Below, piece after piece: positions 56-58,591 of a stretch of 58,591 bases of DNA (position 1 is its first letter; each line of letters begins with the position of its first letter). This stretch comes from a virus. Location of the stretch: the IMG/VR virus record IMGVR_UViG_3300029624_000135, positions 1 to 58,591 of that record, one strand, 5' to 3'. A program made the translations under genes and the position numbers. The notes beneath the pieces are model-generated. The model saw only the letters and a list, made by a program, of their open reading frames with translations, did no database searches and was not told the DNA's origin.

Positions 56-140
56 GGAGGAATGGCAGAGTGGTCGAATGCGGCAGTCTTGAAAACTGTT
101 GAGGGTCACACCTCCGGGGGTTCGAATCCCTCTTCCTCCG
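56..140 (+). tRNA. tRNA-Ser (anticodon TGA), prophage integration target
   Basis: The sequence folds as a serine tRNA: acceptor stem GGAGGAA with TTCCTCC, anticodon loop CTTGAAA with TGA at 90-92, a long variable arm and T loop TTCGAAT. The discriminator is G140 and no CCA is encoded. The last 21 bases belong to the attL core, so the phage supplies the 3' end after integration and leaves the gene intact. Confidence 0.97.
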
Positions 141-142
141 CT
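120..142. other. attL: attL core (23-bp direct repeat, left copy)
   Basis: The 23 bases from the T arm through two bases past the tRNA end recur exactly at 53921-53943. Flanking bases differ at both sides, so these are the limits of identity. Integration at the T-arm/acceptor part of a tRNA gene is usual for tyrosine integrases. Confidence 0.93.
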
Positions 143-3772: not shown

Positions 3773-5127
3773 TACAAAACCTCTTTAACAGAATCAATAA
3801 TCACCTGAATTTCATTGCCGATTGCTCCTGCGCCATTAAAAGCGTCGGACATATATATTTTCGGATAAAGAATACCATTAGCCGAATTTGGAGTGAAATA
3901 TATATCATAAGGAGTCAGTGTATTTGTTAATACTATATCTGTTATCTGACTATCAAGTCCATCCCAATCGCTTATGCTAGCCTGACCTGAATTCAATGTG
4001 GTGTATCTAGCTCTAATGGTCATTTTGTATGTAGCGCCATCTGTTAACAAGCCCACAGAACCGCCAGATAAAAACGCAGTGATCCTTATATAATCACTGT
4101 TTCCATCAACAGCACTTGCCTGTATGATAAAACCACCGCTTCCATCACTTACAGATGCCAAATCTGTACTTGAACTTGATAATGCCTGAAAACCATCTGT
4201 AGAATCAGCATTGTTGTTACTGTTACCTGCACTAGCAAATGTCCATAATTCAGTACCTAATACCTCGCCAGTTACAGGCGTATAAGCCAACAAATCAGAT
4301 GGGTCTAAGACAATTACATCACCATTGCTTTTTATTCGTATTCCTAAAGTTTCTCCTTCTCCGCTTTGTGATTTATAATCGCCATTGTCAGTGCCTTCAA
4401 CAGCAAGAAACCCAGTGCCTTCAACAATAGCTTTGACAAATCCTCTTTCAGTTAAACTAGCTTTATTGACAGACATCACAACAGAATCGTTCGTTTGAAT
4501 ATTTATCACCCCCGCCTGTATGTCGGTGTCCGATAATGTAAAATCAGCGGTCTTAGTAATACCATCCGTGTCTATGTCCGAAGCATTGACATAAGAAATC
4601 GTGGCTTTGTTGGTGTATAAATCGTCGAGTGCATCTTTTGCCGTTGTTTGTCCGTTGTAAGGATACGGCACCTCTTCCGCTGTCTGATTATCTGTACCGC
4701 CCGAAAAAGAACTCATATCAATAGTTACAGTAGTGGCATCTGTCAACGTAAGAACCAGGTCGGTTCCCGATATTACACCTGAGGCTACATTTTCATTGTC
4801 CAGATATGATGAAAGGTCAACTGTCTCTGTACCACCATTTTCTAAAGTCAATGTTAGAATGTTAGATGTGATTGAGAAATCCGATATTTGTTGATTGTCA
4901 GTTCCACCTCCGCTATCGCAATCCACCCATCCAGCACCACCATCATTACATTTCCATTTTCCCTGAGTGGTATTGTAGACCTTATAAACTTCGTCAGAAT
5001 TAGAAGTATCAATGGCGTTCATTTGGGCATCCGTGTATTTTCCCCAACGCTGATAACCTACATACCTCTGTCCCATCACAGGCAAAGCGATGGCAAAAAA
5101 CATTATGGCCAATAAAAGCTTTTTCAT
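3772..5127 (-). CDS. Fibre-like protein with signal peptide and C-terminal carbohydrate-binding-like domain
   Basis: The 451-residue product has a clear signal peptide (residues 1-19, ending PVMGQ), repeated beta-rich segments of the form LTLTLENG-x-ETVDLSSY and LVLTLTDATTVTIDMSSF common in Bacteroidota surface and phage fibre proteins, and a C-terminal beta-sandwich (about 285-451) like carbohydrate-binding modules. It probably recognises or tethers to a surface glycan together with the lyase downstream. A cleavable signal on a tail fibre would be odd, because virions assemble in the cytoplasm. Receptor-binding protein and secreted adhesin are both open. Confidence 0.55.
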   Translation of the reverse strand: MKKLLLAIMFFAIALPVMGQRYVGYQRWGKYTDAQMNAIDTSNSDEVYKVYNTTQGKWKCNDGGAGWVDCDSGGGTDNQQISDFSITSNILTLTLENGGTETVDLSSYLDNENVASGVISGTDLVLTLTDATTVTIDMSSFSGGTDNQTAEEVPYPYNGQTTAKDALDDLYTNKATISYVNASDIDTDGITKTADFTLSDTDIQAGVINIQTNDSVVMSVNKASLTERGFVKAIVEGTGFLAVEGTDNGDYKSQSGEGETLGIRIKSNGDVIVLDPSDLLAYTPVTGEVLGTELWTFASAGNSNNNADSTDGFQALSSSSTDLASVSDGSGGFIIQASAVDGNSDYIRITAFLSGGSVGLLTDGATYKMTIRARYTTLNSGQASISDWDGLDSQITDIVLTNTLTPYDIYFTPNSANGILYPKIYMSDAFNGAGAIGNEIQVIIDSVKEVL

Positions 5128-5342
5128 TTCTTATCTATTTTGTAATTGATAATATCCTTATGGTTACCTGCTGAAACGGATATTTTGTTGTCAACAGTAA
5201 TTTTGTACTTAAGAGTGTTCCTTTCCAGTTTGTCCAACCTTTCCTCATATTCAGAAGTGAGTTTATAGATGTAATACTTGACACCAAAAAACACCGCAAC
5301 CAAAACTGCAATTGCCAATAGTATGAATAGTCCTGTGCTCAT
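5124..5342 (-). CDS. Small membrane-anchored coiled-coil protein
   Basis: A 72-residue protein with an N-terminal transmembrane helix (about residues 4-27) and a charged helical segment (about 30-50). It overlaps the next gene by 4 bp and its neighbour upstream by one base, so it is firmly in the late operon. I do not recognise the family. Possible roles are a lysis accessory factor or a membrane tether for the exported proteins that follow. Confidence 0.6.
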   Translation of the reverse strand: MSTGLFILLAIAVLVAVFFGVKYYIYKLTSEYEERLDKLERNTLKYKITVDNKISVSAGNHKDIINYKIDKK

Positions 5343-5695
5343 TATGCTGATCTTAGATAGGGTTCATCATGGTGGGCCTCAGTAGTAGCACCATCCGTAT
5401 TAACTCTGGCTATATACATATCTCCCCCAAAAAGAGAACCGCCCTTTGGGGCTATTACTATGTCATCGGTAAGTAATTGGTCTTTATCAACATTTGGAGT
5501 AAACCGTAGAACCATTACCCCGTTCAAAAAGAAAATCCTATCGGCCATTATTTTCAAAAGAGCACCTAGTTCCGCAATGGAGTTGAAACCATCCACACCA
5601 TGACTGGTTCTCGCATTAAGTTCCTTGATTATATCGGCACCTTCTTGTGCGGTATATTGCTGATTGTTCCATTCCCTTATTGCCGATTGCTCCAT
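5342..5695 (-). CDS. Hypothetical late-operon protein
   Basis: A 117-residue soluble protein with no signal peptide or membrane helix; it has a helical N-terminal half and a beta-rich C-terminal half. It lies between the tail-tip gene and the exported fibre-like gene, and shares one base with the gene after it. A role as a minor tail or fibre-assembly protein is a guess from position only. Confidence 0.6.
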   Translation of the reverse strand: MEQSAIREWNNQQYTAQEGADIIKELNARTSHGVDGFNSIAELGALLKIMADRIFFLNGVMVLRFTPNVDKDQLLTDDIVIAPKGGSLFGGDMYIARVNTDGATTEAHHDEPYLRSA

Positions 5696-5799
5696 ATTCG
5701 AAATTTTGATTCACGGAATTGATGTGGTCAATTTCTTTAAAAATGGAGTTGCCATAAAGCAATACGCCTTTGGCTTTCAATAGCTTCAATAGAATGGAA

Positions 5800-6009
5800 T
5801 CAAATGAGCTGCTGGAAGAAATACTCTTTTTCCCCTATAGTACAGAAGAATTCCCTTTCAGATTTGAACTTGTCGGAAAACCATCTGTCGGATTTACAAG
5901 ATGGTTCTATGTTCTTAAGCTGTCTATGAAACTCCTTGAAGTTTGTTTCAATGATGACCACCCTATTGTTGAGGCAGCATGAAAACAGCTTTTTTATCCT
6001 TTCGTTCAT
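5800..6009 (-). CDS. Hypothetical small protein
   Basis: A 69-residue ORF rich in Lys, Phe and Cys. It is on the coding strand of the late block, between the convergent lipoprotein gene (6201-6488) and the 5342-5695 gene. An overlapping ORF on the plus strand (5770-5982) competes; the minus ORF has the more protein-like composition and fits the operon direction. About 100 bases between its stop and the next gene carry no clear ORF. No family recognised. Confidence 0.4.
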   Translation of the reverse strand: MNERIKKLFSCCLNNRVVIIETNFKEFHRQLKNIEPSCKSDRWFSDKFKSEREFFCTIGEKEYFFQQLI

Positions 6010-6051
6010 GGTGCCAATTTACAGAATAAGCACTCATTATTGAAATTATTT

Positions 6052-6082
6052 TTGTTATTTCCGTTATAAGCACTTATATTTG
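6052..6082 (+). promoter_or_regulatory. Flavobacterial promoter with palindrome, drives 6201 lipoprotein
   Basis: TTG at 6052-6054 and TATATTTG at 6075-6082 are 20 bp apart, a full match to the flavobacterial consensus. A perfect palindrome TATAAG-CA-CTTATA (6065-6078) overlaps the -7 box, and ATAAGCACT recurs at about 6026-6034, suggesting an operator. The leader to the ATG at 6201 is about 110 bases with no other gene. Confidence 0.65.
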
Positions 6083-24857: not shown

Positions 24858-26348
24858 TTATAACAGCCCTAGATCGTCGGCATTGACCTCCGATTCATGG
24901 ACTTGATTACCTTGTGTTTCTTTTTCTATGATACCGGTCAGTACATCTGGTGCATCATCAAAATCATTCGCCTTGAACATCTTTTTGAACTTTGTAATGT
25001 GTTTGTACATAATTGGGTCCTTGATATGCCAGCTTTCTGGGAAAACAATACAATTGTTGACCGTGGCAGAATTTGAATAGACTCTCGCCTCCTTATTGTC
25101 GCTTTGATGGAATGAATCGTATTCCACCCTATGGTCATCGACCAACTTCTTCACGTTCCGATAAAAGCCTTTTCCACCATTATTGCTCTCGATATGGGCT
25201 TTCCTGACCCTGTTCTTTTTAATTAAGTTGGCGGTCATTGGCTCCGTTACATCCATCCCTTTGTCAGTGTACACCCAGTCGAGTATGTAATAGTGTGGGT
25301 CATTGTCATCCAATGGAACACCATAGTTGATGCTGCATAGGTAATTGTCCCCGCTATCTGCCGTATCGGTGTAGTTCTTGATGGTCTTGAACTTGGGCAC
25401 CTTCCTGTAAGTCTTGAAAGGTTTTGGATACATCAACCCTTCTTTGTTCTGTGGGTCTCCTTGATAAAGACAATCGAACTTATCCGGGTCCTTTGCCCTA
25501 GTAGCTTCCAGTTTCTTCAATGAATGCCTATATGGCCACAAAGGCTCCCCTTCTTCCCTTGGATCGATTTTATTGGGCTTTCCCTCCTTGATGGCCTGAA
25601 AGTTTATCATCAGAAACTGGCCATGGTCCAATCGTGAAATCACATCATCCAAATCTTCGGTACCATCGTAGTGGACCACGAAACCTTTTTCATCCAACAT
25701 TGCGATAAGGTCGGATTCGCTCCACCTGGTGAACGTGATAAGAACCTGCGAATCATTGTGAAGCCTTGAATCGGATACGGTAATGTACCAATCCCAAACA
25801 GCTTTTTGGGTCACTGGAGAATTACCATCCTTCCATCCCTTGTAAAGGTCATCCAGAATAAGAATATCAACAGGGTCTCCCGTCAATGGACCATCTACAC
25901 CTACAAACTTCATGGAACCATCCGAATTGAGCGATTCCCTTTCCATATTTGTGTTTGATTTTGCCTTAGTGGAACCGCGCTCAGGATATGCCACATGTGG
26001 AAATATATTCCTGTACGATGGCTCTCGGATGATATTGATTATCTCCCTACCGAACTTCTGCGCCTTGGTTGCCGAATAGCTGACAATGGCCATCTTTTCA
26101 TCTGGCCTGATACCTGAAATGAAAGCAGGTAATCTCCTGGTACTTGCTTCGGATTTTCCGTGCTGTGGTGGCATGGAAGAAATAAGGTTCTTTATATCCC
26201 CTTTTGCGAACCGGTTTAAAATGTCATAGAACGTTTTATGAAACCACTCTGGAACAAACTTGTCGAAAGTGGCCATTGTGAACTCAAAAAGATTGTCCTG
26301 TCTGATGAGCCTTTCAAGTTCAATAATCTCTTCATTCGTCAGACTCAT
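24858..26348 (-). CDS. terL: Terminase large subunit
   Basis: The 496-residue motor has a Walker A variant PPQHGKS (residues 60-66), Walker B LILDD (163-167), a coupling TFTRW segment (about 205-209), and a C-terminal RNase H-like nuclease with Asp in DTADSG (328), Glu in HIESN (385-389) and DDAPDVLTG (464-472). It cuts concatemeric DNA and pumps it into the head. It overlaps the small subunit by 17 bp. Motifs indicate an active enzyme; packaging type (pac or cos) cannot be told. Confidence 0.93.
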   Translation of the reverse strand: MSLTNEEIIELERLIRQDNLFEFTMATFDKFVPEWFHKTFYDILNRFAKGDIKNLISSMPPQHGKSEASTRRLPAFISGIRPDEKMAIVSYSATKAQKFGREIINIIREPSYRNIFPHVAYPERGSTKAKSNTNMERESLNSDGSMKFVGVDGPLTGDPVDILILDDLYKGWKDGNSPVTQKAVWDWYITVSDSRLHNDSQVLITFTRWSESDLIAMLDEKGFVVHYDGTEDLDDVISRLDHGQFLMINFQAIKEGKPNKIDPREEGEPLWPYRHSLKKLEATRAKDPDKFDCLYQGDPQNKEGLMYPKPFKTYRKVPKFKTIKNYTDTADSGDNYLCSINYGVPLDDNDPHYYILDWVYTDKGMDVTEPMTANLIKKNRVRKAHIESNNGGKGFYRNVKKLVDDHRVEYDSFHQSDNKEARVYSNSATVNNCIVFPESWHIKDPIMYKHITKFKKMFKANDFDDAPDVLTGIIEKETQGNQVHESEVNADDLGLL

Positions 26349-26831: not shown

Positions 26832-27179
26832 CTATGAATATTTGTACCTGAAACCCTGAAATCCTTTTTTGACTTCATAGGGTCTTGGTAGTTTTTCAAA
26901 ATCAATAAGGGTTATCCAGTGATTTGAGTGCATTGAAGAACCATCCGAGAATTCTTTGGTACCTGCGCCCATGTGATCAACAAATCTTGCTCTCCACCTA
27001 ACCCTGTTTCCGATAACTATGTAAACCCATTGAAAGTCCCTCTTAGGTTTAAATGGGAGTCTCCACCAAAAGAACCATCCATTATCACCTTTGCACATCA
27101 GGAAGTTTTCAATCTGTTCCCGATATGGTTTTTCCGATAATTGTTCTTTTCCAAGAGTTACATAGATATCAGCTATCAT
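26832..27179 (-). CDS. Hypothetical protein of the terminase operon
   Basis: A 115-residue protein rich in Trp and aromatic residues (GWFFWWRLPF, VRWRARFVDHMG), with an alternating strand pattern that recalls small RNA/DNA-binding barrels (PUA/EVE-like), but I cannot establish the family. It overlaps the coiled-coil gene by 11 bp and ends 3 bp before terS. Confidence 0.55.
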   Translation of the reverse strand: MIADIYVTLGKEQLSEKPYREQIENFLMCKGDNGWFFWWRLPFKPKRDFQWVYIVIGNRVRWRARFVDHMGAGTKEFSDGSSMHSNHWITLIDFEKLPRPYEVKKGFQGFRYKYS

Positions 27180-27387
27180 CAGTTTCCAACAGTCCCTCGG
27201 CTAAATCGATGATAGTCTCATCTTCTTCAATTTTAGCCTTCAATTCGACAAACTGTTGTTTCTGGTTTGATGAAGCTTGATTTTTGTCTACCAACAATTC
27301 CAGGTCCTTGAGTTTGTCCTTGTGACGGCTCAATCTACTTTTGAGTACATCGATGAGTGCCATAAGTCTGTTCCTATAATTTACCAT
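27169..27387 (-). CDS. Small coiled-coil protein, first gene of the late operon
   Basis: A 72-residue, almost wholly helical, charged protein. The ATG at 27387 is preferred; the longer reading would need TTG at 27411. It begins the run of late genes, and the 130 bp upstream (to the tRNA) carries no ORF. Function unknown; small helical proteins here can help the small terminase. Confidence 0.5.
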   Translation of the reverse strand: MVNYRNRLMALIDVLKSRLSRHKDKLKDLELLVDKNQASSNQKQQFVELKAKIEEDETIIDLAEGLLETDDS

Positions 27388-27463
27388 TGTTGGGTTTTTG
27401 AAGTCCAACAATATAGTTAATAATTAATTTCTTTGGCCCTAGCTATCGGTTTGATCAGAACCG

Positions 27464-27482
27464 AAAGAACATTCATTGGTAA
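27464..27482. repeat. Inverted repeat upstream of the late operon
   Basis: TCGGTT and AACCGA flank a 7-base centre in the gap between the tRNA gene and the late operon. It may be an operator for late-gene control. No clean flavobacterial promoter box was found here, which would fit an activated promoter. Confidence 0.35.
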
Positions 27483-27543
27483 ATTTTGTACTTCAACCTA
27501 TCAATGAATTCTCCTTTCACTAGGGCACTCTCTCTAATTGTTG

Positions 27544-27616
27544 TAGCGGGGGCAGGACTCGAACCTGCGACCTCCGGGACATGAACCCAGCGAGCTACCA
27601 ACTGCTCTACCCCACG
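27544..27616 (-). tRNA. tRNA-fMet, initiator type (anticodon CAT), phage-encoded
   Basis: The 73-base gene folds as a tRNA with anticodon CAT (27581-27583). It carries the three marks of bacterial initiators: a mismatched 1-72 pair (C1 and T72), the GGG/CCC block at 29-31/39-41 next to the loop, and A11-T24 in the D stem. There is a T3-G70 wobble, and the loop is TTCATGT instead of the usual TCATAA-like form. The discriminator is A73; CCA is not encoded. It lies between the ParB-methyltransferase and the late operon. An elongator Met tRNA would be expected to have a paired 1-72 and no GGG/CCC run. Confidence 0.85.
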
Positions 27617-27640: not shown

Positions 27641-28969
27641 TCATTTACCCTTGCTTTTTTTATTGATAATCCAATCCTCGTTTGAGATATCGGCACCGTT
27701 CTTTATTACTTTGACCTCCTTGTCGTTTGCACGGCAATAAGCCACGTATCTTTTCACTATGGCATCACAGAACTTAGGATCCATTTCCATCAGTTTTGCA
27801 ATACGATTGGATTGCTCACAACCCATCATGGTCGAACCACTGCCTCCGAACAAATCCAATACAATAAAACCACGCAATGAATGCTTTTTCAATGCACGTT
27901 CCGAAAGTCGGATAGGTTTTTGGGTCGGATGGATATATGTGTTCGTTTTATCGCGGTTCTCGTACCATACATCCATGGCATCACGATAGTCCTCGTAATT
28001 GAGTGCAAAAACATCCTTCAGGTTATTGATGCCTTGGGCAATAAAATGCTTCTTTCCTTTCTTCCAACCGAACAGACAAGGTTCATAACATCTATGGTAA
28101 TCTTGGCCCATTCCGAATACCATTGATTCCTTTAGCCAAATCAGGTTTTGGGAAATATGCCATTTAGTGTTCAGGAATGCAGTGGAATTGAGTGGATAGT
28201 TCTTGGATGCGTACCACCAATATATGGGACAATCATCGGTAGAATGCTTATGCAGATTATTCAGTACGTCCGTATAGAACTTTATGCAATCGGAATCGGA
28301 CTGGTTGTCATTGAATATCTTTCCACCATCCCCTCCGTACTTGGACGAGTTATATGAATTCCCATTTGCGGAATGATAATCCACGTTGTATGGTGGGTCG
28401 GTAAATATCAGCTGTGCTTTTTTACCTGCCATAAGGGTTGATACATCCTCTGGGCTTGTGGAATCCCCACACAACAATGTATGGTCCCCTAAATGATAGA
28501 TGTCCCCTTTTTGGGTCACTGGTTTCTCGGGAAGATCCACCTGATAGTCATCCTCTTCCAGTTTGACATCATCAGTGAAAACGTTGAGTTGAAAATCCTC
28601 GAATCCGATTTCCTTTAGTTCGAACATCTCGAAATCAAAGTCCAGGAGTTTATCAATATCCCATTGGCCACGGTGGAGGTTGTCCTGAAGCATTCTTTTG
28701 TCCTGTACCTTGGCTGGAATGTCGTGCTCCACAAAACAGGATATTTCTTTTTGGCCCAATTCTTTGCAAGCCTTTACACGTTGGGTACCTGCGTAACAGA
28801 TATGTTCACCATCCTTAAGGTTAATCAGCGGTGGCCGTTGCAATAGGAACTGAGGGTCGCTTTTGATGTCCTCTTTTAGTTTATCGAACTCCGAGTTATC
28901 AATGGTCCTTGGATTCTTTTCCAAAAGGGTGATATCATCAATGGCCAATATGGTCAGCTCCGGGGTCAT
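27641..28969 (-). CDS. ParB-domain DNA methyltransferase (adenine N6 or cytosine N4)
   Basis: The 442-residue enzyme joins an N-terminal ParB/sulfiredoxin-like domain (about 1-125, YAGTQRVKAC in place of GxHR) to a beta-class amino-methyltransferase with DPPY at 191-194 and the SAM-binding FGGSGS at 374-379. DPPY enzymes methylate adenine N6 in most cases. Phage copies usually protect their DNA from host restriction. No paired restriction enzyme is seen, although a VRR-NUC nuclease overlaps its start by 4 bp. Both catalytic motifs are intact. Confidence 0.88.
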   Translation of the reverse strand: MTPELTILAIDDITLLEKNPRTIDNSEFDKLKEDIKSDPQFLLQRPPLINLKDGEHICYAGTQRVKACKELGQKEISCFVEHDIPAKVQDKRMLQDNLHRGQWDIDKLLDFDFEMFELKEIGFEDFQLNVFTDDVKLEEDDYQVDLPEKPVTQKGDIYHLGDHTLLCGDSTSPEDVSTLMAGKKAQLIFTDPPYNVDYHSANGNSYNSSKYGGDGGKIFNDNQSDSDCIKFYTDVLNNLHKHSTDDCPIYWWYASKNYPLNSTAFLNTKWHISQNLIWLKESMVFGMGQDYHRCYEPCLFGWKKGKKHFIAQGINNLKDVFALNYEDYRDAMDVWYENRDKTNTYIHPTQKPIRLSERALKKHSLRGFIVLDLFGGSGSTMMGCEQSNRIAKLMEMDPKFCDAIVKRYVAYCRANDKEVKVIKNGADISNEDWIINKKSKGK

Positions 28970-39998: not shown

Positions 39999-40861
39999 TA
40001 TCCGATTGGGATTCTACTTGTCGTGTTGTTGTTTTGGTTTGATGATTTACTGGTTTGAGGTATTGATTGCACATACTTCTCGAACTTGTCCGACCTGCTT
40101 ATGAACTCCAGAGTCAGGAACTTTGGATTCTCGATATGGTATGGATCCTGACTGCAGTTTTTAATGGCAATGAGAATTTGTTGTCTGGAATAACCCTCTT
40201 TTAGTCTTGCCCTAATCTGCCTTTTGGCCTTATCAGGAACAACCCTAGCCTTTTTACCAGTTATTTCATTGAATTTTTGGAGAAGCAATTCCCAATCTAT
40301 TTTTGGGTTTTTAGAATTTGAATTCTCGCTTGAATCCCCTTTAGGGGGTTTGGGGGTATTTTTCTTTTCTTTAGTATACTCTTCTTTACTTTGTGGTTTT
40401 ACGGAACCTTCACTTTCACTTTTTGATGGTTTATGGTTACTTTTTGAGGGTTTACGTATCCCTAAACTCTCTAAAAGGATGAACAATGATTTTTTGTTGA
40501 TACATTCATTTAACCTTTTTTTGTAGGCATCTTTTATGCTTTCAACAAATTTTTCGTTGAATAATATTCTGTTTTCAACCCAAAGTTTCTCATCAAATTC
40601 ACGAAGTCTTATCAAGTCATCTATGATACTTTCCAACAAATCTTCGCTCACCATACATCTATCAGATAAGAACATGACCTGAACTTCATCAGAGAGGTTC
40701 AAATAATGATAATCGGTATTTCCCAATTCCTCCAAAATCTTGAACCATACAGCATATCCATCATTGCCGTATTTCTTTTCCAGATAACTCATCTTTTTAC
40801 TGTGCTTCACCGGATGAGGAAAGTATTCCACCTTATTTCTTTGGGGTCTGGCCATAATCAA
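39998..40861 (-). CDS. Replisome organizer (Lin1244/Lin1753-like N-domain)
   Basis: The 287-residue protein has an N-terminal DUF4373/Lin1244-like winged-helix domain (about 10-110: FPHPVKHSKKMSYLEKKYGNDGY, FKILEELGNTDYHYL), a low-complexity Ser/Lys/Pro linker (about 140-185) and a DnaD-like C-terminal segment (about 188-260). Such proteins bind the phage origin and recruit the helicase. The 287-residue length is typical. It is followed by dnaB. Confidence 0.75.
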   Translation of the reverse strand: MIMARPQRNKVEYFPHPVKHSKKMSYLEKKYGNDGYAVWFKILEELGNTDYHYLNLSDEVQVMFLSDRCMVSEDLLESIIDDLIRLREFDEKLWVENRILFNEKFVESIKDAYKKRLNECINKKSLFILLESLGIRKPSKSNHKPSKSESEGSVKPQSKEEYTKEKKNTPKPPKGDSSENSNSKNPKIDWELLLQKFNEITGKKARVVPDKAKRQIRARLKEGYSRQQILIAIKNCSQDPYHIENPKFLTLEFISRSDKFEKYVQSIPQTSKSSNQNNNTTSRIPIG

Positions 40862-43584
40862 TCTTTGATATTAAATAGTCCCATCATATTGTCCACAAAG
40901 GACATTTCCATGGTGTCCGTGGCCCCGGTTATCGTATTGGCCACGTGTCTTTTTTCCTGAATCATTTTATAGAGGTCTTCGTCAACGGTGTTGTTTCCAA
41001 GGAAGTAGGTGCACATCACATTGTTCTTTTGACCAATACGGTGTGCCCTGTCCTCACATTGAACACAATCGGCATATGTCCATGGGTATTCCACGAATGC
41101 CACCCTAGAAGAAGCTGTTAAAGTGATACCCACACCTGCAGCCTTTATATTGCATATAATGAGCTTTGTATCATCATCGTTCTGAAATGCATCGATAGCC
41201 TCTTGTTTCTTTTGGGAATTGTCCCGACCTGTTACCGTTACAGCTTTTGGAAACTCCCTTAGCAGCTCATCAACAATCGAATGGAGCACACAGAACACAA
41301 TCAATTTTTCCCCTGAATCATTGACCTCACGAATGAATTCCTTTACCTCATTGAGTTTTCCCAATGCGGAAATCCTTTTCAACTCACCCATCTTGACCAT
41401 TATCTCCCCGCGCATTTTTTTGGCAATCTCCTTGTCGCTGCAACCGCTTTCCTTGAGGTATTGTTCGAATTCGTGGAACGCTTTGTTGTACTCTTTTCTA
41501 GTTGTAATGTCACATAGGATGGTCTGGCGCTGCTTGTCGGGAAGATCTTTTGCAACATCCTTCTTCTCCCTTCGGAAAAAACAGTATTTGTTGATCAGAT
41601 AGTTAAGTTCTTTTAGGTTGGCAGCACCGGAACCACCCTCACAATACCTCGCCAAAAATCCTTTTCTGCCACCAAATTGGTTGTGTCTTCCAAGAATGGC
41701 CAATTGTGGGAACAGGTCGATGGGTTTATTGACCACAGAGGTACCGGTTAGCAGAATCACATATTCCTTTCCGTGGGCAATCCTAAGAACCAATTTGGAC
41801 TGTTGGGTCTTGATATCCTTGCACCGATGGGATTCATCCACAATTATGGATTTGAACAAATTGATGTTGGGATTCATTTTGATTTGATCCGAACGCCTGA
41901 GCTTCCCTTTTGGCGGCATATATTCCACAAAGAACTTTTTTAGGCTCTCAAAATTTGTGATAAAGGCATCGGCCACTCCCATCTGGTGAAAATTCGGCCA
42001 AGTGGTTTTATTGGAATTGTCAAGAATCATGGCCTTTAGATCGGTCCATTCCTCGAACTCGCGCTCCCAAGTGGTTTTCATGGCTGCTGGACATATTACC
42101 AGAGTAGGAAATACATCGTATCCTTTAAGGGATAATGCCAATAGTGTTGAAATCGACTGTATGGTGTTATGCGTAGGTACATAGTGATTGGTCAAATAGA
42201 TACAATCCTTATTACTTACTGAAATACATACATGCTCATGCTTTCCAACCTTTTCAACTTTTGAAATGTATCTTGAAGTGAATTTTCTTTTACGTTTCCA
42301 ACATTGGTTCAGTTTATCAGTCAATGTGAATGGAAAAAAATCTGATTTGATGCTTACTTGGTACTCCAATCCTTTTTCACCCCTATCATATTCTCTTACC
42401 CTCACTAAACCTCCAAGGCTTTGAACCAACTCAGAAATACCATCCACCAAACCACTCGACATTGTATGGTAAGTAATTCTGTTTCTCCTGGCAGAACCAT
42501 CTGTATCCATAAGGCCCATCAATAATTCCTTTCTTTGCTCAACGCTTGCCTGTAAGTATTCAATCGGAACAAATTTGTCCTTGCTATGGACATTTATACC
42601 TAACCTTTTTATTTCCTTTTGAAAGGGATTTGCTTTAGTTGTTCCAGTTTGGGTGATGTAATATTGAGGACAATCAGGATGTCTATTGATATAAACTTTT
42701 AAGTTATCCGGAAGCAAGGATTCAATCCTATTTTTAATTTCCATTTGATGATCAGGAATACTGATGCATGGTGTCTTCCCTGTCATACAACCATCACCAA
42801 GTAGGCAACCCATAATGTACGGGTGGATGATAAAATGCTTGTTCTGGTATTCAACCGGTGAAATTGAAGGCAATTCCCATTTTAAAATTGGTTTAGCACC
42901 GTATGCCACCCGTTTCGGATTGGATTTGTATTCAATGCCTTGTTCCAATAATTCTTTAAGGGTTTTATTGGTCCATCCTTTTCCTCTTCTTCGTCTATTT
43001 TGGTCCCTTACTATCCATAAGTGCTCCAAATTGCAATCAACATGAAATCCATCATTGAAGTGAACTCTATAAGTTTCATTTTCACTTTGTGGAAATACTC
43101 CAGTTACTTTTTGAGTTTTACCATCAAGTCCAAACACTAAATCACCAATTTTGATATCGCCAAATGTTTTCCATCCTTGGGGTGTAGCAATCTTTGAATA
43201 AACAGGTTGTGCTTTACCAAGCCCCTGTTCGTCCCCATTGATAAATCTTTTAAGCTGCATACCCCTAGCTACTCCCTTACCTTGGTATTCGCGAAGCTGA
43301 AAGCCTTTAGGATGTGATAGAGGAAGCTCCAAATCCAATTCTGGAAGCTCAGGCAACTCCCCTATCTCAATCCTTTGTGAATTATCAACTTTAATGACCT
43401 CGGCCCTGCAACGCTTGGCCAGTTCATTGACTAAATCACGATGTGCTATAGGAACCCTCCAAACCTTTTTGTTTGGATTCCACCTTCTTTCCGGTAGTTC
43501 TTTTACCATGGCAAGATTTCTCTTGGTGTAGTGGTTAAAGGGCACCGTAATGTTAAACTCTGAATTCAATTCAACTATCTGCAT
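40858..43584 (-). CDS. SNF2/HARP-type helicase interrupted by an intein
   Basis: The 908-residue precursor has an N-terminal HARP-like domain (residues ~15-65: RRWNPNKKVWRVP), SNF2 helicase motifs and an intein of 349 residues (125-473) between GLGK (121-124) and T474 of Walker A. After splicing a 559-residue helicase remains, with DESH (motif II), LLTGTSVVN (III) and QCEDRAHRIGQ (VI). SMARCAL1-like helicases anneal or remodel forks. The enzyme is inactive until the intein is excised. It overlaps the organizer by 4 bp. Confidence 0.92.
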   Translation of the reverse strand: MQIVELNSEFNITVPFNHYTKRNLAMVKELPERRWNPNKKVWRVPIAHRDLVNELAKRCRAEVIKVDNSQRIEIGELPELPELDLELPLSHPKGFQLREYQGKGVARGMQLKRFINGDEQGLGKAQPVYSKIATPQGWKTFGDIKIGDLVFGLDGKTQKVTGVFPQSENETYRVHFNDGFHVDCNLEHLWIVRDQNRRRRGKGWTNKTLKELLEQGIEYKSNPKRVAYGAKPILKWELPSISPVEYQNKHFIIHPYIMGCLLGDGCMTGKTPCISIPDHQMEIKNRIESLLPDNLKVYINRHPDCPQYYITQTGTTKANPFQKEIKRLGINVHSKDKFVPIEYLQASVEQRKELLMGLMDTDGSARRNRITYHTMSSGLVDGISELVQSLGGLVRVREYDRGEKGLEYQVSIKSDFFPFTLTDKLNQCWKRKRKFTSRYISKVEKVGKHEHVCISVSNKDCIYLTNHYVPTHNTIQSISTLLALSLKGYDVFPTLVICPAAMKTTWEREFEEWTDLKAMILDNSNKTTWPNFHQMGVADAFITNFESLKKFFVEYMPPKGKLRRSDQIKMNPNINLFKSIIVDESHRCKDIKTQQSKLVLRIAHGKEYVILLTGTSVVNKPIDLFPQLAILGRHNQFGGRKGFLARYCEGGSGAANLKELNYLINKYCFFRREKKDVAKDLPDKQRQTILCDITTRKEYNKAFHEFEQYLKESGCSDKEIAKKMRGEIMVKMGELKRISALGKLNEVKEFIREVNDSGEKLIVFCVLHSIVDELLREFPKAVTVTGRDNSQKKQEAIDAFQNDDDTKLIICNIKAAGVGITLTASSRVAFVEYPWTYADCVQCEDRAHRIGQKNNVMCTYFLGNNTVDEDLYKMIQEKRHVANTITGATDTMEMSFVDNMMGLFNIKD
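42166..43212 (-). other. Intein with LAGLIDADG endonuclease (Ala1, Asn349, Thr+1)
   Basis: The 349-residue intein starts AQPVYSKIATPQGW (block A, Ala1 in place of Cys/Ser), has block B VDCNLEHLW, dodecapeptide endonuclease motifs GCLLGDGCM and LLMGLMDTDGSA, block F-like YQVSIKS and a block G of VPTHN followed by Thr. Ala1 inteins use the +1 nucleophile directly (class 2). The splice junction restores GLGK-T. It is a complete homing intein in a phage gene. Confidence 0.92.
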
Positions 43585-46282: not shown

Positions 46283-47035
46283 TTAATCCAGTTTTATTCC
46301 TGTGATTTCCTCAAATACTGAAGAATCAAAATTTGGAAGTGATCTCAGTAGTGATTTGTCGTGTTCAGAAGCTGTATCAAAAGCGTTTTTCCAAGCCTCC
46401 TTATAACTGAAAACCTTAAGGTATCCGTCACATACATATGCCTTTGAATGAATCTTCTTTTCCTCATCTGTCATGTCACTGAACCAAATCCATTTTGTTG
46501 TATTTAATTCATAAATGAAACCTGGCTTTTCTGCATTTTCCCAATCAGATTTTTTACATGGTTTATTGAAGACTAGGATTGTGTCAGGAACAACGGAATT
46601 GAAAAATCCGTTGTTTCCGTCGCCACTATTCCAGTCGCCACTATTCCCGTAGCCACTATTCCTAGAGCCACTATTCCAGTCGCCACTATTCCTAGAGCCA
46701 CTATTCCAGTCGCCACTATTCCAGTCGCCACTATTCCAGTCGCCACTATTCCTAGAGCCACTATTCCTAGAGCCACTATTCCCGTAGCCACTATTCCCGT
46801 AGCCCGTGTTGTCGTTTCCTGAATTCAACAAATTCAGGAAAACGACACCAAAGTGCTCCAAGGATTCCTGGTCACTCAATAATTTATTCTCATAGCACCA
46901 TGAAAGGTTATCATTAATGACTTGTTTTAACTCATCATAATTCTCAGCTTTCAACGCCTTTTTATATTGATCTGAGCATGCCCGTAATTCCTTTGCTCTA
47001 TTGAGTATACATTCTTTTGCTTTGATAAAATCCAT
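46283..47035 (-). CDS. Pentapeptide-array protein
   Basis: The 250-residue protein has a helical N-terminus (1-75), an array of N-S-G-x-x pentapeptides (about 78-143; units GDW, GYG and GSR) and a C-terminal ~105-residue domain. Such arrays fold as right-handed quadrilateral beta-helices, and some relatives mimic DNA and inhibit gyrase, but other members have different roles. It shares one base with the next gene upstream. Its early expression suits a host-takeover or protection role, but this is inferred. Confidence 0.75.
46623..46802 (-). repeat. 15-bp tandem repeat array (12 units, three variants)
   Basis: Twelve perfect-length 15-bp units on the plus strand all start CCACTATTC and end in one of three 6-base tails (CAGTCG five times, CCGTAG three times, CTAGAG four times). 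No other base differs. The array codes for NSG-x-x pentapeptides, so gain or loss of units keeps the frame. Confidence 0.95.
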
Positions 47036-52019: not shown

Positions 52020-52544
52020 ATGAAAAAAATACTTTTTACCATCATTTTACTATCATTCAACCTTTTGTTTTCACAAGAACTAATAAAAACAACAACCGAT
52101 GAATTCACAGGTAGTATTGAAATATCGACTAGTTGGGAGGTTCTTTTCAGAAAAGGCATGACCCCAAGTGTCTGTAAATACCGTTTCAACAATGTCGATG
52201 GAAAACTGAGGCTCGAGGTTAGATTGGTTGTTAATGGAGGGGAAGTCTTCGCTGTGGATGAAACCATGGCCATTTCCTTTTTGATGGATAATAAAGAAGT
52301 TGTGGAATTTTATCCTAATGGTGTATTCATCGCTAAAAAAGGAGGTGCATCCGATGGTTTTATCGGGTCTAGTAGATGGGGTGCAACGATATATTACCAA
52401 CCATCATCTAACGAAGCATTTAATCTATTGTCAATAGGTACCGTGAAGAAAGTACGTCTCCATACCGACATTGGGTATGTTGAGGACAAATTGAAATCAA
52501 AAGAACAGGAAACTTTGTCCAGGAGCATTTCGCTTATTCTCTAA
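52020..52544 (+). CDS. Secreted protein next to the integrase
   Basis: The 174-residue protein has a signal peptide (1-18, ending LLFSQE) and a mature part with a beta-rich fold and no lipobox. Mature residues 60-115 contain alternating strands. It ends convergent with the integrase (4-bp overlap). Being outside the lytic operons, it is likely expressed in lysogeny. No family is recognised. Confidence 0.65.
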   Translation: MKKILFTIILLSFNLLFSQELIKTTTDEFTGSIEISTSWEVLFRKGMTPSVCKYRFNNVDGKLRLEVRLVVNGGEVFAVDETMAISFLMDNKEVVEFYPNGVFIAKKGGASDGFIGSSRWGATIYYQPSSNEAFNLLSIGTVKKVRLHTDIGYVEDKLKSKEQETLSRSISLIL

Positions 52545-53776
52545 CCCCAAACCTTTTTCATGCTTTCCTCAACGGTTCGCATGTTGGTTTTTTTGTACTT
52601 CATCAAGGTTTTTGGGTCCCGAATACCGGTAACCTTCATTATGATGTGGTCGGGCATTCCTTTTTCTGATGAAAGTGTAATAAATGTTCTTCTTGCTGTG
52701 TGGCTTCCCACCATCTGATACTTTTTGTAATAAAGAACCTTTTTTTGGTTTCCGCGGTAAACTGTCTCCTTCACCTTTTCCTTGATTCCTGCATCATGGC
52801 ATACTGTTTTTACATGCACATTAAACTTCTGTTCGCTGATTTTGGGAAGCTTCCATTCATACTTTTCCAACAATGCCAGTAACTTATTATGAAGGGGAAT
52901 AAAGCTCTCGTACTCGGTTTTTTCAGCTTTCTTAATGATCATATCACCAACAACATCTGCTTTCTCAAAAACCGAATAATCGGAAAAACGCTGGCCACTA
53001 TAAATACCGATAAGAAACAAGTCCCTTACCCTTTCTAAGGAATCACGCTTTGGTTCCAGTTCCTCCAGCATTCGAACCTCCGAAGCTGTTAAATGCACAT
53101 CCTCTGGTTGGTATTTCTTGACAGGGTTCTTAAGCTTGTCCATATTAAGGTTATGGTGCTTTCCCTGGGCCCAGTTCAAGAAGGTGAACAGGAAGTTGAT
53201 ATTACGATGTAGCGTGTTGTCGTTATGGGGCTTAAATGGCTTCTTTTTGATTTTCCTTAGAAATCCACAATACCTGTCAATCCAATCCTCATCTATATCA
53301 TCCAGACTGAATCCACCATTATGCCCAATGAAGTATTCAATTTTCAACTTTAGGTTGCTGTATTTTTGATTCCATGAGTACGACTGGCCACCAGAACGGT
53401 TCTTGGAGTCGATGAAATCTTGAATGGCATCCACTGGACCAAGTTTCTTCCTTTGGGATTTTGATTTGCCCTTGAAGTGTTTGTCAAATTCACTTTTAAG
53501 TAAATCCTTGGATAGCTTCAGTTCTCGAGTCTGCGAATCACGAATCAATGATTCAAGAAAATCGGCATACTTGGATAGGACCAGTCCGATATGTTTGTTC
53601 TGTTGTCCAGCCGAACCCCTCATGGCCAATGGCATCCTGTTCTCAAAACTCCAATGCTTAGGCGCAATCTTTTGACCGGTACTGTACTTAAAATACTTTT
53701 TCTCATCTTTGATGTAGTAAACCAAGATGATCAATGTCTCTTTTTCGAATTTCGGTTGTTTTAGAAAGAAGTACAT
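52541..53776 (-). CDS. int: Phage integrase (tyrosine recombinase)
   Basis: The 411-residue recombinase has an arm-binding N-terminal domain (about 1-95), a SAM-like core-binding domain (about 110-215) and a catalytic domain with Arg263 (YSGQRFSDY), HTARR (His359, Arg362) and Tyr394 (LMKYKKT). The usual second His (LGH) is Ile-Arg here (GIRD). It is next to attR and arm-type repeats. It catalyses integration into tRNA-Ser. Confidence 0.9.
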   Translation of the reverse strand: MYFFLKQPKFEKETLIILVYYIKDEKKYFKYSTGQKIAPKHWSFENRMPLAMRGSAGQQNKHIGLVLSKYADFLESLIRDSQTRELKLSKDLLKSEFDKHFKGKSKSQRKKLGPVDAIQDFIDSKNRSGGQSYSWNQKYSNLKLKIEYFIGHNGGFSLDDIDEDWIDRYCGFLRKIKKKPFKPHNDNTLHRNINFLFTFLNWAQGKHHNLNMDKLKNPVKKYQPEDVHLTASEVRMLEELEPKRDSLERVRDLFLIGIYSGQRFSDYSVFEKADVVGDMIIKKAEKTEYESFIPLHNKLLALLEKYEWKLPKISEQKFNVHVKTVCHDAGIKEKVKETVYRGNQKKVLYYKKYQMVGSHTARRTFITLSSEKGMPDHIIMKVTGIRDPKTLMKYKKTNMRTVEESMKKVWG

Positions 53777-53920: not shown

Positions 53921-53943
53921 GTTCGAATCCCTCTTCCTCCGCT
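53921..53943. other. attR: attR core (23-bp direct repeat, right copy)
   Basis: Exact copy of the 3' end of tRNA-Ser (120-142) without the rest of the tRNA. It marks the right end of the prophage and is 145 bp from the integrase start. Confidence 0.93.
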
Positions 53944-53966
53944 GAGAAATAACATCTCAACACATT

Positions 53967-53999
53967 AAACCCTGTAAATCAACAATTTACAGGGTTTTT
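53967..53999 (+). terminator. Terminator after attR
   Basis: A 13-bp perfect stem AAACCCTGTAAAT/ATTTACAGGGTTT with a 5-base loop and T-run. It may be the original tRNA-Ser terminator or the end of the second element. Confidence 0.8.
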
Positions 54000-54191
54000 T
54001 ATTTTTTATGATATCAAATAATATCATTTGAAACCATACTTAATAGTGCCCCTTTCGGTGCCCCCTATAGCAACTTCAAAAAGGGGCACCTAATCGCATA
54101 TATTATTCTGTTTATCAAGTATTTACAATAAACTCCTTTTAAATTTTTTTTCATAATTTCAAGGTGTTTAATGTTAAATTAGGTGCCACTT

Positions 54192-55421
54192 ATGGTTTCT
54201 CTTCTATTCTATCTCAGGAAATATAAAAAAGATCGTGTTGGCCGGTCAACTATTTATGTCAGAATTACAATTGATGGCAAGCGTTCGGAATTCAGTACTG
54301 GACGCAAGATACACCCCAGTATATGGGACGCGGCGTATGGCAAAGCAATAGGTTTTTCCCAGGAAATAAGGCTATTGAATTCGTATTTAAGCAAAATACG
54401 CACTGACCTTTACCGACATGCGGAGATAGTGAGAGATCGAGATCAAACACTTACCGCGGTGTCACTTAAGGAGTCTTATTTGGGATTGGACAAGCCCAGT
54501 AAAATGCTTTTGGAGATATTTCAAGAACACAATGACAGAGTTAATGAACTGGTAGGAAAAGATTTCGCCCCCGGTACAGCAGAACGATACAGAACAGCAA
54601 AAAGTCATTTGGCCGAATATTTACAGATTGAACTTCGAAAGAAAGATATACCCGTTGTGGATGTGAATCATTCCTTTATTTCCGGTTTCGAATATTATCT
54701 AAAGACAAAAAGAAAGTGCAGCCATAACACGGCCATCAAATATGTGGTGAACTTTAAAAAGATTATTAGAATTGCCTATGCCAATGGTTGGATCAAAACT
54801 GACCCCTTTGCCAATTGGAAAGCACGATTGAAAACGGTCGAGCGGGAATTCCTGACTGATGAAGAGCTTCAACGACTGATGCACCATTCTTTTACTAATG
54901 AACGATTGGAGCATGTAAGGGATTGTTTTGTTTTCTGTTGCTTTACCGGATTAGCCTATGCTGATGTAAAAAAACTGACCCATGATGATTTTGTGATAGG
55001 GATTGACGGAGATCTTTGGATCAACACCAAACGGACCAAGACAAAAACAAAAAGTAACATTCCCGTTCTTCCAACAGCATTGATGATTCTCGAAAAGTAC
55101 GAGCACAGCCCTTTACTTGCAGACAAAAAGGTACTGCCTGTGTTGACCAATCAAAAGATGAATGCTTATTTAAAGGAAATAGCGGATCTAAGCGGAATCA
55201 ATAAACACCTGACCACTCATTTGGCCAGACATACTTTTGCGACCACCGTGACACTTTCCAATGGCGTCTCCATTGAGTCTGTAAGCAAGATGCTGGGGCA
55301 CAAATCACTCCGAACCACGCAACATTATGCAAAAATATTGAACCGAAAGGTCAGTGAAGATATGCAATTGTTAAAAAAGAAATTGAGCTTTCAAGAAAAG
55401 ATCAAGTCAAAAAACGCTTAA
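54192..55421 (+). CDS. Tyrosine recombinase, IntDOT-like (lacks Arg-I)
   Basis: The ATG at 54192 is preferred over GTG at 54183. The 409-residue protein has an arm-binding domain (about 1-75), SAM-like domain (about 105-205) and catalytic domain with TGLAYADV where Arg-I should be (Ala), HLARH (His-x-x-Arg), LGHKS and the Tyr in QHYAKI. Conjugative-element integrases such as IntDOT also lack the first Arg. It probably integrates the second element. Its orientation points away from attR. Confidence 0.88.
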   Translation: MVSLLFYLRKYKKDRVGRSTIYVRITIDGKRSEFSTGRKIHPSIWDAAYGKAIGFSQEIRLLNSYLSKIRTDLYRHAEIVRDRDQTLTAVSLKESYLGLDKPSKMLLEIFQEHNDRVNELVGKDFAPGTAERYRTAKSHLAEYLQIELRKKDIPVVDVNHSFISGFEYYLKTKRKCSHNTAIKYVVNFKKIIRIAYANGWIKTDPFANWKARLKTVEREFLTDEELQRLMHHSFTNERLEHVRDCFVFCCFTGLAYADVKKLTHDDFVIGIDGDLWINTKRTKTKTKSNIPVLPTALMILEKYEHSPLLADKKVLPVLTNQKMNAYLKEIADLSGINKHLTTHLARHTFATTVTLSNGVSIESVSKMLGHKSLRTTQHYAKILNRKVSEDMQLLKKKLSFQEKIKSKNA

Positions 55422-55433
55422 ACCTTTTGCCCC

Positions 55434-55742
55434 TTGATATTGGCCCTTGTAGAAACATATCAGGAAGAAGAGAATCCAGAAATTTCGTTAGAGCACCGAA
55501 AATTGCTCGATCAGCGTTTGGCCGACCACATAGCTGATCCAGAAGCCGGAAAAGATTGGAAAATCCTAAAATCTGGGCTACACAAGAAATATGGCCTTAA
55601 CAAAGGGGTTTCCGGAAAACCCCTGATGCATTATGTAAATTTCCTTATTTCACAGGGGTTAACATGGTATGAAGTACAAATGGGAAACAAAAAATTAGTG
55701 CGGTTTTTTAAGCCGGTAATATCTTGTTCATTTTTTGACTGA
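55434..55742 (+). CDS. Possible antitoxin-toxin remnant
   Basis: A 102-residue ORF with a weak TTG start. The N-terminal half (ISLEHRKLLDQRLADHIADP, then W and KYG) resembles addiction-module antitoxins. The C-terminal half contains TWYEVQMGNKKLVRFF, similar to part of a ParE-like toxin, but it is too short for a complete toxin. This may be a fused and decayed pair. It sits 12 bp downstream of the integrase. Confidence 0.4.
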   Translation: MILALVETYQEEENPEISLEHRKLLDQRLADHIADPEAGKDWKILKSGLHKKYGLNKGVSGKPLMHYVNFLISQGLTWYEVQMGNKKLVRFFKPVISCSFFD

Positions 55743-55784
55743 TAGGTCGTATTCAAATAGAAATTAATAAAATCACCATTAAAG

Positions 55785-57122
55785 TCACTTAATCTGTTTT
55801 CCCTTTTCCGTTAACCTATATCGTTGCTTACTGCTTTTCGGTTTATCCGGGATTGTCATTTCAATCAATTTTGCATCAATTGCCGGCTGTAAATAATTAT
55901 ATAAAAATGTTGGACGATGCCTCATGTCTAACTTTGTCATTAATTCTGCCGTTGTAGTTTCATCCCTACCCATTACAGAAAGTAATTTTGAAACTTGTTC
56001 GGTAACTTGTTCGGTAACTTGTTCGGTAACTTGTTCGGTGATTTTTTCAGAAGAAGGAAAAGTCATTCTGGTAAAGTTATCCATAAACCGGAAACATTCC
56101 TTTCCGTAACTCTTTAAAATCCGTGGAACGCCAGAGCCCAGTTGCTCTACCAAATCCAAATCCCTGTATATACGCATTAGCTCCTTATTCCTCGGCATAG
56201 AAACGCCTTCAAAAAAATCTTCTTTGCTAAGTCCGTCCGGTAAGGAACCGGCAGATGTTATTTCAATCCTGTCGTCAAATATTTCAAACTTAGGTGGTAC
56301 TTCTCGGGTGTAGTCGTTATGTACTATGGCATTATATATAGCTTCACGCAAGGCTACAGGATTCCATAACTTTCGCTCAATACGTTCTTTTGATGTAATG
56401 GTCGCAAAAGTTGTATTTTCTACTGCAATTTTATCCAGTACACTTTTTGTGGCCTTAATGAGCGAGCAATATCCATATTCATTATTTTCAAGAAGGTCTA
56501 CCCGATCTAGGCCTTTATATTTAGCAACTTTAATAGATACATTGTTCACATCTGCTAAAAGGTAGGCTGCATAGTTAAGGAAACCGTCTTCGGTAAGTAG
56601 TTCTAGATTCTTTTTAAACTGTTTGTTAAGAGGTTTACCATTCTCCTGATAATAGATATGTAGCTGCTCAAAACTTAAGTCCTGACGATGCGATTTTATT
56701 TTTCCTATTGAATTACGGGTACGGCTGGCGAAAAGTTTATCAATCATAGCTTGCGGCATGGGTTCGGCCGCTGTGCCTACACGAATAAAACAGCCTTTTT
56801 CGGTCATGCCGTATTTCTTTTTGAAATAGGGCTTTTCACTTCCACCGGCAACAATAATTTTGATAATGTCTTTACCGTCACGTTCTTCAGCCACTACATC
56901 AAATAAACCCATGGCAGAAGGAGCAATATTGTTTTTGATACGGTCTTTGATTTTAAGCATATCACCGTCAACATCATCTACACCAAGTACTTTCCCATGC
57001 TTATCAATGCCAAAGTAAATTAACCCGCCTTCCAAATAATTGAGGAAAGCAATCACTTCCTTTTCCAAATCCAGGTCTCTGGTTAATTTTTCTTTGTATT
57101 CTATTCTGTTTGTTTCAGACAT
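55785..57122 (-). CDS. AlbA_2 (Schlafen-type) regulator, RecG-like annotation family
   Basis: With the ATG at 57122 the product has 445 residues: an AlbA_2 DNA/RNA-binding domain (about 1-115, LNYLEGGLIYFGIDKHG), a middle region, an HATPase-like section (LREAIYNAIVHNDY), TEQV repeats (four units near 385-400) and a winged-helix end. Such proteins, often named RecG, act as regulators or defence factors. An upstream ATG at 57161 is less likely. Its promoter region holds a palindrome. Confidence 0.8.
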   Translation of the reverse strand: MSETNRIEYKEKLTRDLDLEKEVIAFLNYLEGGLIYFGIDKHGKVLGVDDVDGDMLKIKDRIKNNIAPSAMGLFDVVAEERDGKDIIKIIVAGGSEKPYFKKKYGMTEKGCFIRVGTAAEPMPQAMIDKLFASRTRNSIGKIKSHRQDLSFEQLHIYYQENGKPLNKQFKKNLELLTEDGFLNYAAYLLADVNNVSIKVAKYKGLDRVDLLENNEYGYCSLIKATKSVLDKIAVENTTFATITSKERIERKLWNPVALREAIYNAIVHNDYTREVPPKFEIFDDRIEITSAGSLPDGLSKEDFFEGVSMPRNKELMRIYRDLDLVEQLGSGVPRILKSYGKECFRFMDNFTRMTFPSSEKITEQVTEQVTEQVTEQVSKLLSVMGRDETTTAELMTKLDMRHRPTFLYNYLQPAIDAKLIEMTIPDKPKSSKQRYRLTEKGKQIK

Positions 57123-57153
57123 TATCAGTGATTTGATGTAAAAATAATCTTTT

Positions 57154-57175
57154 ATATACACCTACTAGGGTATAT
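57154..57175 (-). promoter_or_regulatory. Operator-like palindrome before the AlbA_2 gene
   Basis: ATATAC and GTATAT flank the smaller palindrome CCTACTAGG, with one extra base on the left. It lies 32-53 bases upstream of the ATG at 57122 and could be an autoregulatory site. Confidence 0.5.
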
Positions 57176-57189
57176 GTTTTAATCAATAG

Positions 57190-57520
57190 AATTCCCCAAG
57201 GCTCTGCCTCGGGTGTAGTAAAGGAAATGTTTGAAAAACGGATGGTTTTTTAAAAAATGATAACATATTGTTCCGTTGAATACCTCGTGGGCTTGCTCCG
57301 AGGATTATTTATTACCAAACAACAGCCATCCCCCGGAGGTATTCACAAAATTAGATTTCAATTCTAAGTCTGATTAAAGTAGTTATTAAGGGGGGCTAAG
57401 GTTTATGGGGAGACCACTTGTCCCCAAATCCCTTACCCCAACTTCAGCGCTCGGATCCTATCCTATTTTTGTAGCAGTTCGGAAAGAAAAGCGTATAACA
57501 AAAATAGGATAGGGCGCTGT
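57190..57520. other. Non-coding stretch with strong inverted repeats
   Basis: This 330-bp gap has no ORF. It holds a GAATACCTC/GAGGTATTC inverted repeat (57278-57286 and 57336-57344) with an inner CCTCG/CGAGG hairpin, a G-rich/C-rich hairpin near 57389-57440 and a 16-bp perfect inverted repeat (57457-57472 and 57498-57513) with AGCGC/GCGCT outside. These are the kind of structures found in oriT or regulatory RNA; a bidirectional terminator is another option. Confidence 0.55.
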
Positions 57521-57521
57521 C

Positions 57522-57977
57522 CTACTTTTTGCCTTCTACCTCCAGCCATTCTTGGTAGAGTTCCTTTGCCCCTGGGCTATGGTCAAGGAATGTTCCGTAA
57601 TGTTCCATGACATTGTCCCGCCCTTTAATATATGCGGCCTCTTCTTTCTTGGAGATCCTTGATACCTGATAGATGGAAAAACCAAGGACCAACAGGACCG
57701 TGACCAACAACCCCCAAGTAAGTTTTATGGCCCAGCTGGGCAAGGTAATGGACCGCTCGACTTTATGAAGAATCCTTCCCATCAATCTTTGTTGTTCCTC
57801 AATGTTGGTTTTTTGGTTGTTGCCGTACTCCTTTAGAAGCGCATTTAACTCGCTGGTATCTGGCCTTAATGGAAGGTTCTGCAAATTTTCATGCACCTTT
57901 TCCAAACGGCCGATGCTCTTCTCAAAGCCGTTGATCTCCTCGGTCAACAGTTCCGCTATTTCATCCAGTTTTGCCAT
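57522..57977 (-). CDS. Coiled-coil membrane mobilization accessory protein
   Basis: The 151-residue protein has a helical coiled-coil N-terminus (about 1-75), a transmembrane helix (about 85-107) and a helical C-terminus. Proteins of this layout often follow relaxase genes in mobilizable elements of Bacteroidota. It lies 10 bases after the relaxase. No named family. Confidence 0.65.
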   Translation of the reverse strand: MAKLDEIAELLTEEINGFEKSIGRLEKVHENLQNLPLRPDTSELNALLKEYGNNQKTNIEEQQRLMGRILHKVERSITLPSWAIKLTWGLLVTVLLVLGFSIYQVSRISKKEEAAYIKGRDNVMEHYGTFLDHSPGAKELYQEWLEVEGKK

Positions 57978-57987
57978 TTCGTTGTGT

Positions 57988-58590: not shown

Positions 58591-58591
58591 T

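Follow-up and report, generated by a model that had tools for sequence, protein, structure and literature searches.

In actinobacteriophages, tRNAs carried by the phage can underlie tRNA-dependent lysogeny, in which the phage supplies a tRNA in place of the host tRNA that its integration disrupts (PMC10865867), and for other phage tRNAs, mutations in the anticodon loop have been proposed to serve nuclease evasion (van den Berg 2023, PMC10264068). The initiator tRNA is itself a nuclease target: in Shigella and Salmonella, VapC cleaves tRNA-fMet at the A38-C39 bond (cited in PMC4105405). In Sinorhizobium meliloti, a lone tRNA-Met(CAU) or tRNA-fMet(CAU) is often found in prophages of the phiLM21-like group (PMC12429752). 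Our own survey recovered at least 120 IMG/VR contigs matching a pattern that combines the initiator D arm with CAT, and initiator-type tRNAs are present in named phages, including Stenotrophomonas QDWS359 (where the gene is annotated as tRNA-fMet), Variovorax VBv52, Pseudomonas PaMx74 and D3, and Cellulophaga phi4:1, the tRNA of which scores about equally as initiator and elongator. Given these contigs, named phages, and published lone tRNAs, the phage-borne initiator described below is not very unusual, contrary to what an earlier note on this DNA had assumed. Phage initiator tRNAs are already known, and it is the change in the anticodon loop that stands out in the present family.

The window, that is, the whole stretch of DNA analyzed here (58,591 bases, an IMG/VR virus record), contains an integrated temperate phage, ~53.8 kb long, of a flavobacterium. 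The limits of the prophage can be placed at ~120-53943 because a pair of exact repeats lies at a tRNA-Ser gene, with an integrase beside the right copy:

56-141, plus strand: tRNA-Ser(UGA) gene of the host, complete at the left-hand junction of attachment (ARAGORN, Rfam)
120-142, plus strand: attachment repeat (23 bp, exact), left copy, which is the 3' end of tRNA-Ser
53921-53943, plus strand: attachment repeat (23 bp, exact), right copy
52541-53776, minus strand: tyrosine integrase of the prophage, adjoining the right attachment repeat

Apart from the host tRNA-Ser, the initiator is the sole tRNA of the prophage, and in the records of intact relatives (G006 and G013), the initiator is likewise the only tRNA that appears to be the phage's own. 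Because the phage's sole tRNA is an initiator, codon supply does not obviously fit. Integration at a tRNA gene brings to mind the tRNA-dependent lysogeny known in actinobacteriophages, but the attachment site is tRNA-Ser(UGA), an isotype other than that of the phage tRNA, the core measures 23 bp rather than the short ~10 bp typical of that mechanism, and tRNA-Ser is complete, having been rebuilt. With tRNA-Ser as the attachment site, the phage tRNA is not a stand-in for a gene that integration disrupted, and this explanation, to which we assign next to no probability, is ruled out.

Several other features of the window are worth recording. The segment to the right of the attachment repeat (53944-58591) is a separate mobile island beside the prophage; it encodes another tyrosine integrase (54183-55421) as well as a relaxase resembling MobA/VirD2 (57988-58590). 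A gene at 46283-47035 (minus strand) contains a tandem 15-bp repeat encoding N-S-G-x-x pentapeptides. The SNF2-type helicase at 40858-43584 (minus strand) carries an intein-like insert of ~349 residues (approximately residues 126-474) with a LAGLIDADG domain, which sits within the Walker A motif GLGK/T and is absent in relatives L012, L274, and L282. A relative of this insert (28% identity) is found in L009 at 5032-6069, right at the start of the match to the terminase large subunit, which itself begins only at residue 53; L009 thus possibly has an intein in its terminase.

ARAGORN identified the tRNA-Met(CAT) gene at 27543-27616 on the minus strand, and a search against all Rfam families returned the tRNA family at the same place (56.3 bits, E 1.7e-9). 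The sequence, 5' to 3', is CGTGGGGTAGAGCAGTTGGTAGCTCGCTGGGTTCATGTCCCGGAGGTCGCAGGTTCGAGTCCTGCCCCCGCTAC, and its main features are as follows:

27543-27616, minus strand: phage initiator tRNA gene, tRNA-fMet(CAU); C74 is encoded and the full CCA is not, as in host initiators
27545-27616, minus strand: acceptor-stem ends, where C1 (27616) and U72 (27545) face each other without pairing, as they do in host initiators
27593-27607, minus strand: D arm, in which A11 (27606) and U24 (27593) form the initiator pair; this pair is C11-G24 in host elongator Met and Ile2
27576-27588, minus strand: anticodon stem-loop, G29-G31 (27586-27588) paired with C39-C41 (27576-27578)
27579-27585, minus strand: anticodon loop, positions 32-38, UUCAUGU (CUCAUAA in host initiators), with the anticodon CAU at 27581-27583

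The tRNA that the earlier note had described from C1xU72, A11-U24, and the GGG/CCC run, leaving the strand unstated, is therefore real and intact. The sequence features that mark bacterial initiators are all present: positions 1 and 72 form no Watson-Crick pair, A11-U24 occupies the D stem, and 29-41, 30-40, and 31-39 are G-C pairs, although these last are not all kept in relatives L008, L018, L013, and L007. The loop CUCAUAA, a conserved host feature that is not part of the initiator definition, is replaced by UUCAUGU.

To assign identity, we used three covariance models (initiator, elongator Met, and Ile2) built from Flavobacteriaceae chromosomal genes only, with phage sequences excluded. 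The window tRNA scored 93.2 bits with the initiator model, compared to 69.4 bits for elongator Met and 52.4 bits for Ile2; in the same order of models, a control host initiator scored 106.3, 72.8, and 66.6 bits, and a control host elongator scored 67.4, 104.3, and 66.0 bits. This comparison, of the kind that the earlier note had named as able to refute its reading, came out in favor of the initiator and rules out an elongator-Met or Ile2 identity. Consistently, when set against the full tRNA complement of a single related host genome, the window tRNA best matched the host initiator (81% identity), with elongator Met at 69%. It is thus nearly certain, judging from sequence, that the gene encodes tRNA-fMet. 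With the chromosomal initiator of Flavobacteriaceae it has in common C1xU72, A11-U24, GGG/CCC, and the ...CTAC end; it differs in the loop, in the change of C3 to U, and in the pairs 27-43 (U-A to C-G) and 28-42 (C-G or U-A to U-G). C1, U72, and the ...CTAC end recur in each of the 13 distinct initiators sampled from Flavobacteriaceae, which rules out that C1xU72 is a phage-made departure from C1xA72, this mismatch being the norm in the hosts.

The gene lies between the middle and late genes, as the earlier note had observed, with a DNA methylase upstream and the terminase genes downstream:

27641-28969, minus strand: N6/N4 DNA methylase with a ParB-like N-terminal part, 24 bases upstream of the tRNA
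27169-27411, minus strand: small, conserved ORF that lies beyond the tRNA on its downstream side, with relatives in L003, L004, L008, L009, L013, and L018
26332-26829, minus strand: terminase small subunit (phrog_309)
24858-26348, minus strand: terminase large subunit, used as the query for relatives

In the direction of transcription, the tRNA is followed by the small conserved ORF, the small and large terminase subunits, and the portal gene. Past the tRNA and ahead of the terminase operon, the stretch at 27425-27525 (minus strand) folds into a strong three-way hairpin (-27.7 kcal/mol, z -3.4, equaled by no shuffle), which is not obviously common to the relatives that were folded. A gap of merely 24 bases from the methylase stop to the tRNA, with the terminase operon following, would suit a processing mark, that is, a site of RNase P and RNase Z cleavage that divides a single transcript into its middle and late portions. 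In L018 and L013, however, the tRNA precedes the methylase gene, and for such a purpose any tRNA would do, leaving the retained initiator marks unexplained, so that we regard this role as very unlikely. The same location, just ahead of the terminase and late operon, together with the initiator being the only tRNA carried, fits a role in dosage, with the tRNA raising the initiator supply during heavy late translation and no nuclease involved. This account does not explain why the loop departs from the host sequence, and the relation between base -1 and base 37, examined as a sign of extended codon-anticodon pairing, gave no consistent signal: base -1 before start codons is a pyrimidine in 54% of cases in the window and in 38% in relatives that lack the tRNA (uncorrected p 0.045), and the corresponding values are p 0.49 for phages with U37 and p 0.13 for those with A37. 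Hence, we consider dosage quite unlikely, and the specific suggestion of the earlier note, that the tRNA boosts weak or leaderless late starts, found no specific support.

Terminase searches yielded two sets of related loci. Upstream of the terminase, an intact initiator-like tRNA was found in L008, L034, and L018, which with the window makes four intact copies, and two damaged ones, in L007, which has lost its D arm (56.5 bits), and in L013, which has a bulged acceptor stem and U31-G39; among the other family loci scanned with the initiator model, none contained an initiator-like tRNA, and most terminase relatives are without the gene. In L008, as in the window, the tRNA comes after the methylase gene. 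This pattern of intact, damaged, and absent copies indicates that the tRNA holds to one region, that it comes and goes there, and that it decays at times. Two more Bacteroidota prophages, outside the terminase family (G172 and G229), also carry an initiator-like tRNA.

In the hosts, the anticodon loop is conserved. CTCATAA is found in 13/13 distinct Flavobacteriaceae initiators, and a search of 395 Bacteroidota genomes for the initiator D-arm pattern with CAT gave 94 matches, 90 of which have this loop. The four exceptions comprise two partial copies in G228, a match in G511 that is not a tRNA, and the G229 prophage; G228 and G511 were accordingly ruled out as variant-loop initiators, being partial copies and a chance match, respectively. 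In G228 (contig C31, 69000-70300; L268), a complete initiator gene is adjoined by two partial copies that end just past the anticodon loop, as is characteristic of a site where an element inserts. Phage copies, by contrast with the host loop, read TTCATGT in the window, CTCATTA in L008 and L034, and TTCATAA in L018, and the two prophages outside the family have TTCATAT (G172) and CTCATAT (G229). The earlier note had pointed to the difference at positions 37-38, which is indeed present, and position 32 (C to U) also departs from host initiators. The T32 change alone is mild, because host elongator Met has T32 too; T37 and G37 are absent from every host CAU tRNA sampled, and base 38 is changed in the window, with A38 kept in L008, L034, and L018. 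An exact search of IMG/VR with the window's anticodon arm returned no match.

All four intact family copies thus depart from the host loop at position 32, 37, or 38. These copies were found via the terminase rather than by tRNA sequence; the copy in the G229 prophage, which came to light through its variant loop, does not enter the main statistic for that reason. Compared with the host, 6/12 cells differ at positions 32, 37, and 38, versus 1/40 at the other unpaired positions (Fisher p 2.8e-4, a value from few sequences that overstates independence because the copies share ancestry, and that serves as a guide rather than a probability). The main rival to nuclease resistance is relaxed drift, under which a captured host initiator of little or no benefit would be drifting and being lost, with positions 32, 37, and 38 changing first because they are less bound by the fold. 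The patchy presence among relatives, the decayed L007 copy, the bulged acceptor of L013, and the variation of the changed bases between copies (G37, U37, U32) all agree with drift. Conversely, the intact copies keep the acceptor mismatch, A11-U24, U33, CAU, and the T loop; their stems vary in sequence yet stay paired despite two-sided changes, except for A31xC39 in L018; and the other unpaired positions are hardly altered. On balance, drift appears rather unlikely.

The viral initiator-like tRNAs at large bear on both readings. Among the matches listed, 94/119, Cellulophaga phage phi4:1 included, retain CTCATAA, which, along with the lack of the gene in most terminase relatives, argues against nuclease evasion, and 85/120 loci have no other tRNA within the stretch examined. 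Pairing was analyzed for the 112 listed tRNAs with a standard T arm (pattern loci L106-L225), from contigs whose hosts may include phyla with other initiators. Every anticodon-stem pair is 96-100% paired in this set despite wide sequence change, which speaks against drift. Pair 29-41 is A-T in 58, G-C in 34, and T-A in 20 of these 112; 30-40 is G-C in 110 and 31-39 in 94. The Bacteroidota chromosomal matches all carry GGG, the window keeps all three G-C pairs, and cultured phages of Streptococcus, Xanthomonas, and Cellulophaga also show the 29-41 change. The ribosome reads pairs 30-40 and 29-41 via A1339 and G1338 (PMC11497404), and the pair retained in the viral tRNAs, 30-40, is one that it reads directly through these contacts. 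Common loss of the 29-41 G-C pair with retention of 30-40 in phages constitutes a natural experiment on the ribosome's requirements for an initiator. In a separate observation, C33 takes the place of the near-universal U33 (loop CCCATAA) in L297 and L302 (Pseudomonas aeruginosa phages D3 and Haboob) and in L301 (Janthinobacterium phage Donnerlittchen).

The explanation we favor, tentatively and with somewhat less than even confidence, is that the gene provides a working initiator tRNA of a temperate flavobacterial phage, derived from a flavobacterial initiator, with a loop that resists anticodon nucleases; the resistance step taken on its own is similarly tentative. Most likely, the tRNA would be read through from the methylase and middle operon and then processed, after which a host enzyme would add CCA and the tRNA would be charged with Met. 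The C1xU72 end would permit formylation, and G29-31/C39-41 would support use in the P site. The benefit would most likely arise upon removal of the host initiator, when the phage copy could sustain initiation: with bases 32, 37, and 38 altered, next to the bond that VapC-type anticodon nucleases cut (38-39), it would survive. In L008, L034, and L018, which keep A38, resistance would have to act through position 37 or 32. Toxins besides VapC also act on initiator tRNA, and PIN-domain proteins, which have the VapC fold, occur in 3/4 related host genomes tested. A search for known defense genes among ten less clear window proteins yielded only weak partial Argonaute-type matches, to a gene outside the prophage. 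The proposal of the earlier note that the tRNA replaces a host fMet tRNA cut by nucleases is plausible and draws support from the loop, the changes being concentrated next to the A38-C39 bond; we infer the replacement itself. A broader possibility, which we consider doubtful, is that a flavobacterial phage lineage keeps a lone initiator whose loop has repeatedly changed to survive cleavage of host tRNA-fMet, with initiator-directed anticodon nucleases acting as an antiphage defense in Bacteroidota. For the question of why phages carry tRNAs, a lone initiator that comes and goes, with loop changes, offers a direct test.

Among the known systems, QDWS359, VBv52, PaMx74, D3, and phi4:1 have CAU tRNAs with an initiator-type acceptor and D arm, like the window; unlike it, phi4:1 has the loop CTCATAA and a second tRNA (Gly) alongside, the D3 tRNA has C33, and QDWS359 additionally carries tRNA-Ile. 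The phiLM21-like prophages, as characterized in the relevant sections of PMC12429752, are likewise temperate, ~53 kb long, and integrated in tRNA genes (Ser, Lys, Leu, and Pro), with the host tRNA restored and hence no tRNA-dependent lysogeny; they differ in that their host phylum is unrelated to that of the window, and those sections leave anticodon-loop changes undiscussed. The phage tRNAs for which evasion of VapC, PrrC, and colicins was proposed resemble the window tRNA in that the loop differs from the host near the cut site, but the phages in that study generally avoided tRNA-fMet, whereas the window phage carries tRNA-fMet alone (van den Berg 2023, PMC10264068). If the broader possibility above is correct, this family would exemplify defense-driven change in a tRNA class that phages were reported to avoid.
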